Source of the DNA: Hydrogenobacter sp. T-2
GTDB lineage: Bacteria; Aquificota; Aquificia; Aquificales; Aquificaceae
Assembly: GCF_033971325.1 (NCBI RefSeq)
Contig: NZ_CP117180.1
Coordinates: 1,484,472-1,548,471, forward strand
Length of the DNA: 64,000 bases
Direction of reading: 5' to 3'
Shown here: positions 15,492-34,500 of the stretch, piece by piece
Layout of the letters: every line of letters starts with the position of its first letter
Numbering within the stretch: position 1 is the stretch's first letter
Made by a program: the position numbers and the translations under genes
The notes under the pieces: generated by a model
The model's database searches: none
What the model was told of the DNA's origin: nothing
The model's input: the letters and a program-made list of their open reading frames with translations, nothing else

Positions 15492-15505
15492 TTAAACAAC
15501 CTACC

Positions 15506-15630
15506 TCGAGCAGGCTTTTATACCCACTTGATAAGGGTTTACGGAGTGCGGTGTAAACACCAACCCTACCTAACACGGTTAGGTAAGCTTTTGTCGGCAT
15601 CCACATTCCGCACCCCACTTTAAAAGCTAA
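15506..15630 (-). ncRNA. Structured repeat RNA candidate, copy 1
   Basis: A 125-bp element about 87% identical to a second copy at 15743-15868. Read on the minus strand it can fold into a rod of three stacked helices: 11 bp (GUGGGGUGCGG with CCGCACUCCGU), 12 bp (GUGGAUGCCGAC with GUUGGUGUUUAC) and 10 bp (CUUACCUAAC with GUUAGGUAGG) capped by CGU, followed by a 9-bp hairpin (UCAAGUGGG with CCUGCUCGA, one A-C mismatch). It has no convincing -35 box of its own, only a GATACT-like -10, so it may be reached by read-through from copy 2. There is no open frame of note and no U-run terminator. It begins 14 bp after the relA/spoT stop. No known RNA family was recognised. Confidence 0.62.
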
Positions 15631-15742
15631 GAGAGTATCCCTTAGTATAGACAAATATCCCTTTTAGGGACATTTATCCACACTTTGGGTTTAGGGGCTC
15701 ACCGACCCCAGTGCCTTACTCCAACTGCACTAATACCGCTCA
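15631..15742. other. Spacer between the two structured repeat copies
   Basis: A 112-bp non-coding stretch. It contains a short inverted pair around 15694-15708 (GGGG...CCCC), an inverted repeat TCCCTTTTAGGGA at 15659-15670, and a perfect DnaA-box nonamer TTATCCACA at 15674-15682. No gene is seen. If one transcript covers both repeat copies, this is its linker. Confidence 0.5.
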
Positions 15743-15868
15743 TCAAGCAGGCTTTTCATACCCACTTGATAAGGGCTTGCAGAGTGCAGTGTAAACACCA
15801 ACCTCACCTAACACGGTTAGGCGAGCCTTTGTCGGTATTCACGTTCCGCACCCCGCTTTAAAAACTAA
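15743..15868 (-). ncRNA. Structured repeat RNA candidate, copy 2 (promoter-proximal)
   Basis: A 126-bp element matching copy 1 with one inserted base and 15 substitutions, all transitions. On the minus strand the same rod forms: 11 bp (GCGGGGUGCGG with CUGCACUCUGC), 3x1 internal loop, 12 bp (GUGAAUACCGAC with GUUGGUGUUUAC), 5-nt bulge, and 10 bp (CUCGCCUAAC with GUUAGGUGAG) capped by CGU. All 33 pairs hold in both copies through compensatory or G-U changes. A 9-bp hairpin (UCAAGUGGG with CCUGCUUGA) follows. The predicted transcription start falls at about 15867, the first bases of the element. It lies in a gap between two converging genes, so it is not a leader of a protein gene. Function unknown. 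Confidence 0.7.
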
Positions 15869-15873
15869 AGAAT

Positions 15874-15902
15874 AATATACAACATTTATCTTCGTTTGTC
15901 AA
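15874..15902 (-). promoter_or_regulatory. Strong promoter reading into the structured repeat RNA
   Basis: On the minus strand TTGACA (15902-15897) and TATATT (15879-15874) are separated by exactly 17 bp. These are the same hexamers and spacing as the dnaK promoter in this window. The predicted start is about 7 nt downstream, at the boundary of repeat copy 2. No minus-strand protein gene follows before the end of relA/spoT. Confidence 0.8.
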
Positions 15903-15944
15903 CATTTTCAAAAACTAATCGCCAAGACCAGTTGCCAAGACTAC

Positions 15945-31521: not shown

Positions 31522-34500
31522 GAAGCTGGGCTGGGTTTTCTAAGGCAAAGACCTTGGAGACCCCGCCCCTTCCGCTAACACCTATCACCTTGTCTGCAAA
31601 ACTTGCGAGGACTTCCCTCAAGGTGACCACTATAAACTGAGCTTCCTTTGACCTCTCCTTTATAAGCTCTCCCACCCTTCTGGCGTTTGCTTCATCAAGG
31701 TGTGCGTCCACCTCATCAAAGTAATAGAAGGGTGACGGTCTGTAGTCTTGTATGGCGAAAATAAGAGAAATAGCAGCAAGTGTCTTTTCACCACCAGATA
31801 TGGCTTCTAAGTATTGCACTTCCTTTCCTCTTGGCTTTACTACCAAGCTCACACCACCAGAGAATGGGTCATCCTCTCTCTCAAGCACCATGTATGCCCT
31901 TCCACCAGGAGAAAGCTCAGAGAAAATGTGCCTAAGGTTTCTATCCACTGCCTGAAAGGTTTCCATAAAGGCTCTTAGCTTTTTTGTCTCTATTTCCTGT
32001 ATGAGTTCTTTTATAGACTCCTTTTCCTCTTTTAGCTTTTTGTATCTTTCCTGATAGTCTGTGTATCTCTCCTCGTATTCCCTGTATTCCTCCTCCGCCT
32101 TGAAGTTCACACCGCCGATAGAAGAAAGTTCCTTTAGTATTTTTGAAAGCTCTTCTTTGAGTTTACCAAACCCCTCTTTTACTTCTACCACATCACCCTC
32201 ATAGTGGAGGTCTCTCAATTTGCTGAGGCTCTCCTCGTATCTTTCTTCAAGTTTTGCCCTTTCAAGCCCAAGCCTATGAAGTTCTTCTTTTATGGTCTCT
32301 TCGTGAAACTTCAACTTTCCAAGTTCTGACTGAAGGATTCTTTGTTCTTCTTCCAGTTTGTCCTTTTTTTTGTAAAGCTCGTAAGCCTGCATATTGACCT
32401 GCTTTAGTTCTTCTTCCATCTCTTCTCTCTTTCTGTGTAGTCCTTCCAGCTCTTGGTTTAGTCTTTTAATCTCATCCTGGGCACTGTCAATAAAGGCGAG
32501 TTTTCTGCCTATTTCCTTCTGTAAGCTCTCTCTTTCCATCTGTAGCTCTTTTAGTTTTAGCTGTTCTAGGTGTATGGACTCCTTTAGCCTTTCTATCTTT
32601 TGCTTTTGTTTTTCATATTCCCTTCTTAGGTTTTCCACTCCAGACTCCTTGTAGTGGGTAAGAACCGACTGCCTTTTTATGTTGAGGTTTTCCAGCTTTT
32701 CCTCAAGGTAAGCTATTTCTTCTTTTAAAGCCTGTGCTTTCCTTTTGGTCTCTTGCGATTCTTGTTCCAATATCTGAAGATATTCTTCCGCCTTGCGAAG
32801 TTTTTCTTCTATATCTTTAAGTCTCTCATAGCCAGCTTTATCGGACTCTTCCACTTCCTCAAGCCTTCTTTTAAGTATGGCTATGATGCTTTCCTTTTCA
32901 AGAAGCTCATCCCTGAGAGCTTTTAGGAGCTTTTCCTCCCTTTGTTCCTCTTCCTTCAATTTCTGTTCAAGCTCCAAAAGTCTGTTTAGCTCCTCAAGAT
33001 AAAAGGCTCTTCCAAGTTCACCCCTTTCTTCGCTATGCCCTCCACTTATGACGCCACTTTTCTCAAAAAGCTCCCCATCAAGGGTCACCATCCTATAAGC
33101 ATTTCCAAGAGCCTTTGCAGTCTCAAAGCTGTCCACAAGGAGCGTATCTCCAAAGATAAACCTTATTGCCTTTTCAAACCTTCTGTCGTATTCCAAGAGG
33201 TTCACCACAAAGTCTATAACACCTCTTTGTCTTGGTGGATAGGATGGCAGGTTCGTTTCCCTTATCCTGTTCAAAGGTATAAAGTTTAGCCTTCCCCATT
33301 TTAGCTCCTTGAGCCTCTGTATGCACCTTTTTGCTACCTCCTCGTCCTGCACCACCACATAAGAAAGCCTTCCACCCCCTGCGGTCTCAACCGCCCTGAG
33401 ATATTCAAGGTCTTTAACTCTTATAAGGCTTGACGCTCTGCCGTAAACTCCTTCTATGCCCTCAAAGGGTAGGTCTTCTGGTGGCATGCTTGCCAGCCTA
33501 CCCTTAAGCATAGAGATTTCCTTAATGATCTCTTCTCTTTCTTGTCTTATTTTCTTGAGCCTTTCCTCTTGGCTTTGGTATTTATCCTTCTTTGTCCTTA
33601 TGGACTTCTCTTCCTCCTTTAACATCTTCTGGTAATTTTCCCTCTTCATAAGGGATTCGCCCATGCTTGCCTTTATTTTTTTCTCCTCTTCCCTTAGCCT
33701 TTCCATATCTTCTCTAACTTTCTCCTTTTTAAGCTCCAGCTCTTTCAGTTTCAGTTCCATCCTTGAAAGCTCTTTCCTTGCATCTGCCAAAGTATTAGAA
33801 AGCTCTTTTAGTTTCTCCTCTGTCCTTTCCATCTCTTCAAGGGAAACCTTTAGGCTCTCCTCCCTTTCTTTTATACTCTTCCAAAGAAGGTTTGTAGCCT
33901 CTTCCAAGCCCAAGAGTTCCATCTCCTGCCCCTCAATCTCTCTCAGAATCTCCTCCTCTTCCCTTTTTAGAGACTCCTTTTGGGCTTCAAGAGATCCCAT
34001 CTGTTCCTGTGTATAGAAGACCTCCTTCTCAAGGTTTTCAATTTTCTTTTTATGTTTTTCTATCTCTTGGCTGAGGACTTCAATAGACTGCGACAGCCTG
34101 CCAACCCTTTCCCTATAAGGAAAGAGACTCTCGCTTACGCTCTTTAGCTCCTCTTCTAAAAGGGTGAGCTTTTCTTCGTATTCTCTAAGCATCCCTTTGA
34201 GTTTTCCAAGCTCTTCCTCCTTCTGAGCCATAGTTTGGGATGTTTGCTGTATTGATTTTTGAAGGTCATAGGCGGTCTTTAGATTGAGCTTTATCTCCAA
34301 AAGTCTTCTCTTTTCCTCTAAGTCTCTGTATAGGTTTAGCCTCTTTAGCTCCTCTTTGAGCTTTTCCATCTGCACTTCCATCTCATCCATAAGAAGCCTA
34401 AGCTCCCTTAGCTTTAGCTCCACTTCTCCAAGGTCCGCAAGAGCCTTTTGCTTTTTCTCCTCATACTCTTCTATACCCGCTATCTCCTCAAGGAGCTTCC

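Follow-up and report, generated by a model that had tools for sequence, protein, structure and literature searches.

In the 64,000-nucleotide stretch analysed here (the window), the convergent gap between the stop codons of relA/spoT (15491, plus strand) and clpB (15945, minus strand) holds two similar copies of one sequence (copy A, 15516-15630; copy B, 15754-15868), which are 87% identical and lie 238 bp apart. No gene-like open reading frame of the window could be assigned to this gap, so the initial annotation was right about both the paired copies and their non-protein-coding nature. On the minus strand the two copies fold, far beyond chance, into the common structure described there, a rod of 11+12+10 bp (33 bp) with a CGU cap followed by a hairpin; fold z-scores were -5.2 for copy A, -8.1 for copy B and -11.7 for the whole gap, and only -2.4 and -1.3 on the plus strand. 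Our recount over 128 compared columns gave 17 substitutions and two single-base gaps between the copies instead of the 15 differences and one indel first counted. The estimate of about ten pairing-compatible substitutions in the rod proved exact (10 of the 17), all 33 rod pairs being intact in both copies. One true double change was found among these pairs (C:G to U:A, columns 56/74), and the remaining rod changes are one-sided, mainly to or from G-U. Two changes in the downstream hairpin disrupt pairs, in copy A only. Copy B additionally has a conserved part without counterpart in copy A (15633-15740) that comprises stem 1, a hairpin, a long terminal hairpin and the right end (Table 1). Neither this part nor the strong promoter-like site a little upstream figured in the initial annotation.

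Table 1. Features of the relA/spoT-clpB gap, in window coordinates.
Feature	Position	Strand	Remark
Copy B, complete 293-bp guide-RNA-only mini-element, TTGGCGATTAG ... GGGATACTC	15633-15925	-	Five more subfamily copies in two genomes, same ends, other flanks
GTC of the target/predicted TAM (GGTC), directly 5' of the copy B left end, inside the copy A left end	15926-15928	-	
Sigma-70 promoter-like site TTGACA-17-TATATT, predicted start near 15867, just before the rod	15874-15902	-	11 of 12 consensus bases
Copy B rod (11+12+10 bp with CGU cap), forming the 5' portion of the omega RNA	15779-15856	-	
Second hairpin of copy B, 14-17 bp	15739-15775	-	Consensus helix 4, 98.7% of cells paired
Omega RNA stem 1, with GAGUA (15717-15721), the proposed pseudoknot's 5' arm, in its loop	15711-15730	-	ISDra2 stem 1/pseudoknot layout (PMC10097598)
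Long terminal hairpin beside the right end	15639-15689	-	Consensus helix 7, 97.6% of cells paired
UACUC, final five bases of the element and the proposed pseudoknot's 3' arm; scaffold end and guide start	15633-15637	-	98.9% of cells paired, almost invariant
Predicted guide of copy B, flanking DNA TCTTAGCTTTTAAAGTGGGG, start of copy A	15613-15632	-	Adjoins the right end on its 3' side
Copy A, older mini-element that retains the rod and the second hairpin but has lost promoter, core and right end	15505-15630	-	
Left-end remnant of copy A, TTGGCAACTGGTC, landing site of copy B	15926-15938	-	

Searching 112 genomes of the order at the DNA level recovered dispersed copies, and most of the aligned homologues were the 3' ends of tnpB genes. 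The open reading frames of these genes (501-520 amino acids) give Cas12f1-like TNB (PF07282) and OrfB_IS605 matches, their products are related to Cas12f and TnpB structures, and the motifs ALDFG, LENL and HADVNA (D-E-D) are intact in the resident TnpBs. Two intact full-length TnpBs of this parent family are present in Hydrogenobacter sp. T-2 (G000; 602074-603555 and 1664352-1665833, L033/L034). Intact copies carry this rod within the tnpB 3' end, where it overlies the zinc-finger codons and those of the last RuvC motif (RuvC-III). The guide RNA of this TnpB family has an extended, structured 5' arm placed on top of catalytic codons; the stop codon of L033 stands 10 nt before the right end, so that its guide RNA is almost wholly coding sequence. 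An omega RNA is known to overlap the tnpB 3' end and to contain a pseudoknot (PMC10097598), and the full scaffold found here ends exactly at the right end of the transposon. Judged by its sequence, the RNA is no orphan: it belongs to a TnpB family as its omega RNA (reRNA). Comparison with Rfam gave only a tRNA elsewhere in the window at the gathering score and nothing credible at E-values up to 5, which agrees with the earlier failure to recognise a family; the accompanying proposal of an unknown stand-alone RNA does not survive, as the RNA of copy B belongs to a known mobile element end, the kind of match named at the time as evidence against it. Separately, in genome G036 tnpB is split by a frame change near residue 121 at two places (G036:C1:461048-462372 and 31636-32960), with the guide RNA intact.

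Several other identities were considered and discarded. The searches above exclude a known Rfam family, and a CRISPR-like repeat array is excluded by the presence of two copies only, the other homologues being single elements. A terminator pair for the convergent genes is excluded because the same gap in relatives is without such an element. IS607/RAGATH-18 was excluded since no serine recombinase (PF00239) matched in G000, G036 or G037, none adjoining these elements, and since the base that follows the right end can be T, C, A or G; such variation is a trait of IS200/IS605 and not of IS607 (PMC10711439).

The covariation in homologues that the initial annotation had suggested looking for was clearly present. 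In an alignment of 18 sequences (5 elements without tnpB and 13 tnpB copies) with 75 pairs in seven helices, 97.7% of the pair cells held standard pairs, compared with 33-44% when the partner was slid by 1-3 columns, and 33 of the 75 pairs showed double changes. None of 500 shuffles reached any of these measures; relatedness is disregarded by the shuffles but not by the slid controls, and the observed excess is large. Additionally, pairing between the loop sequence GAGUA and the terminal UACUC, located where ISDra2 has its pseudoknot, is possible in 98.9% of cells. Both segments are nearly invariant, so covariation speaks neither for nor against this interaction, and the pseudoknot is proposed from conservation and analogy.

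The arrangement of the two copies points to a nested insertion. The left-end remnant of copy A reads TTGGCAACTGGTC and copy B begins right after its GGTC, so that the supposed twin RNA is one copy inserted in another rather than an RNA of two domains; each of the remaining five members of the subfamily is single. Copy B would have inserted at GGTC in the left end of copy A, producing the twin at the cost of the promoter of copy A, and the 3' half of copy A would have been lost as well. Copy A, in which all rod changes still keep pairing although promoter and 3' half are gone, is an older, truncated copy and its rod a relic. The same gap carries other, unrelated ORF-like inserts in two relatives (G037:C96:10150-11300, L093; G046:C12:18000-19350, L094), together with a run of N and a repeated clpB end in G037, so the relA-clpB gap seems to be an insertion hotspot.

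Insertion sites elsewhere follow the same rule. Almost every identified copy has GTC or GTT before its left end, and at four homologous sites the native GGTC/GGTT is followed at once by the bases now found to the right of GATACTC. Insertion occurs 3' of a short fixed target without duplication; this is clean on both sides for the copy on contig C42 of G037, whose homologous site is cleanly empty in many relatives, and the three other sites are one-sided or have a nearby deletion. The G037 copies on contigs C14 and C50 were left out as two-sided empty sites because their flanks are not collinear with G000. One flank of each (L046, L193) matches the same G000 locus (L099), as if the elements had recombined with each other or the draft had been misjoined at repeats. 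GGTC is the predicted TAM and the right flank the predicted guide, an arrangement that fits the TnpB model (PMC8612924). The traits of a non-autonomous IS200/IS605-type element, fixed ends, several loci and no genes, are all present. Y1 transposase (PF01797) had no match in G000 and, among 14 genomes, was found only in G036. With neither a Y1 nor a serine transposase found in G000, the copies there look immobile now, and their movement has probably ceased, unless it relies on an enzyme that escaped recognition. The G037 draft, for its part, has four elements without tnpB and no intact tnpB, only pieces at contig ends.

A covariance-model search of the order gave matches in 22 of the 112 genomes. 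Fifteen copies, spread over six genomes, stand alone with no TnpB upstream (hereafter minis). Subfamily 1 consists of six copies in G000, G036 and G037, among them copy B; the other five, from two genomes, have the same ends in different flanks. Stand-alone copies of a second subfamily occur in G041 and G043, and of a third in G045. In a tree of 37 guide RNAs the three mini clades are each strongly supported and each nested with the tnpB copies of their own lineage, which forces at least three changes; on this tree, resident tnpB elements gave rise to minis on three or more occasions. The left end of copy B is common to tnpB elements and the right end GGGATACTC is invariant. Furthermore, the promoter, which ends about 18 bases before the rod of copy B, is found at the same place in most minis, its match being lost in some, and 14 tnpB-coding copies lack it at that position, immediately ahead of the rod. 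Gene loss apparently brought the promoter region at the left end of tnpB elements up against the guide RNA.

We also compared each mini with its closest tnpB copy, from which the structure was taken, and scored the changed pairs against random replacements. Pairing was kept at 18-21 of 23-30 changed pairs in subfamily 1, at 24-29 of 38-47 in subfamily 2 and at 16 of 28-29 in two of the three copies of subfamily 3, the third doing so weakly; for the window copy the value was 21 of 26, against a random mean of 8.8. Within subfamily 1, 15 of 22 distinct pair changes were kept (P = 0.0016 against an assumed 0.35 and 0.07 against 0.5), which makes this a modest test. Such values above random indicate that structural constraint likely persisted after the loss of tnpB, and part of the divergence between minis and coding relatives may predate that loss.

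All these data lead us to favour, with a probability of about 75%, the view that copy B is a guide-RNA-only parasite, a miniature non-autonomous IS200/IS605-type element that uses TnpB in trans. At the sequence level it is a tnpB-element left end, a target motif and a right end, without tnpB, enclosing a full covarying scaffold behind a promoter-like site. Its RNA would be transcribed from about 15867 through the right end and bound by TnpB in trans, with the flanking ~16-20 nt serving as guide. TnpB could then cut the empty donor site (GGTC plus guide target) left by excision, and repair from a sister copy would restore the element; action of TnpB at donor joints has been published (PMC8612924). 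TnpA, also in trans, must presumably have moved the element.

Short elements derived from IS605 are commonly interpreted as decayed ends, and the minis could be ordinary deletion derivatives (MITE/PATE), dead or mobilised by TnpA, whose hairpins are kept by youth or for the transposase as single-stranded DNA, with no guide function in trans. Such elements exist, as in the 271-nt PATE-like IS605 case of Halanaerobium, made up of a 28-nt left-end segment, a 58-nt piece of tnpB and the right end (PMC7290912), and copy A and the relics in G000 are clearly decaying. We nevertheless consider this explanation unlikely, since a complete omega RNA is kept in all three clades, including the rod 140-230 nt from the right end, changed pairs are kept well above random, many of them through G-U, which fits RNA better than DNA, and a promoter lies just before the RNA in most minis. 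A takeover by the host, with the RNA acting as a regulatory guide (TldR-like) or an sRNA, would agree with a stand-alone noncoding copy that has its own promoter and with the single full copy of the element in G000. This is very improbable, however, because related copies are multi-copy with unrelated guides, the core of the copy B guide, when searched in G000, has its sole exact match in itself, in its own flank, the gap of relatives is without such an element and the resident TnpBs retain their D-E-D motifs.

Beyond the parasitic nature of copy B, we lean slightly towards a recurrent class of transposons that have a TnpB omega RNA, under a promoter of its own, as their only gene and that exploit TnpB in trans for homing-type retention in the way MITEs parasitise transposases. 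Three independent origins of minis, in which the nuclease was shed and the guide RNA kept and remodelled behind a promoter, would be instances of it, and a search of the accessible literature returned no guide-only TnpB element. If these elements are functional, a guide RNA can by itself constitute a selfish replicating unit and one TnpB can serve many guides, and the separation of effector and guide, a step needed by CRISPR, becomes directly testable in thermophiles.

When 84,980 genomes were searched for the right-end pattern, the family turned up in Aquificota (Hydrogenobacter, Sulfurihydrogenibium and other Aquificaceae) and in hot-spring MAGs labelled as other phyla, and the acidobacterium Pyrinomonas methylaliphatogenes carries a tnpB 3' end with the guide RNA of the family (L216 2306-2659). 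This occurrence outside Aquificota suggests horizontal transfer among thermophiles. In G000 itself, two decayed copies in opposite orientation, about 1.7 kb apart (G000:C1:1316484-1316749 and 1318419-1318599; L035 4485-4750, 6420-6600), flank, as judged by eye, an apparent transposase fragment and an Rpn-like nuclease gene, and another right-end relic (G000:C1:1480871-1480930) lies about 3.5 kb to the left of the window.

Among known systems, the reRNA of RAGATH-18/IS607 is a TnpB guide RNA with pseudoknots (PMC11061315). The RNA of copy B resembles it in being a TnpB guide RNA with a proposed pseudoknot, and differs in having no Rfam match, no adjoining serine recombinase and a variable base after the right end. 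Altae-Tran 2021 reportedly described stand-alone IscB omega RNAs (HEARO) in Ktedonobacter, which, like the minis, are guide RNA loci away from the nuclease gene; nuclease and RNA family are different there, and the window has no HEARO match. PATE-like elements and MITEs of IS200/IS605 share with the minis their shortness, the lack of genes, both ends and presumably movement in trans, whereas the minis have the whole omega RNA, a promoter directly before it and signs of selection on structure; the published account of the Halanaerobium case mentions no more than the ends and the final 58 nt of tnpB (PMC7290912). A parallel in layout is ISDra2, whose reRNA of about 231 nt overlaps the tnpB 3' end, ends at the right end and forms a pseudoknot between its 3' end and the stem 1 loop, with the right flank as guide and the target 5' of the left end as TAM (PMC10097598, PMC8612924). 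The RNA described here is alike in the tnpB 3' overlap, the right-end terminus, the layout of the proposed pseudoknot and the predicted placement of guide and TAM. In contrast, the predicted TAM is GGTC/GTC and not TTGAT, the 5' half, disordered and dispensable in ISDra2, is a long covarying rod, and the RNA described here also exists without tnpB.
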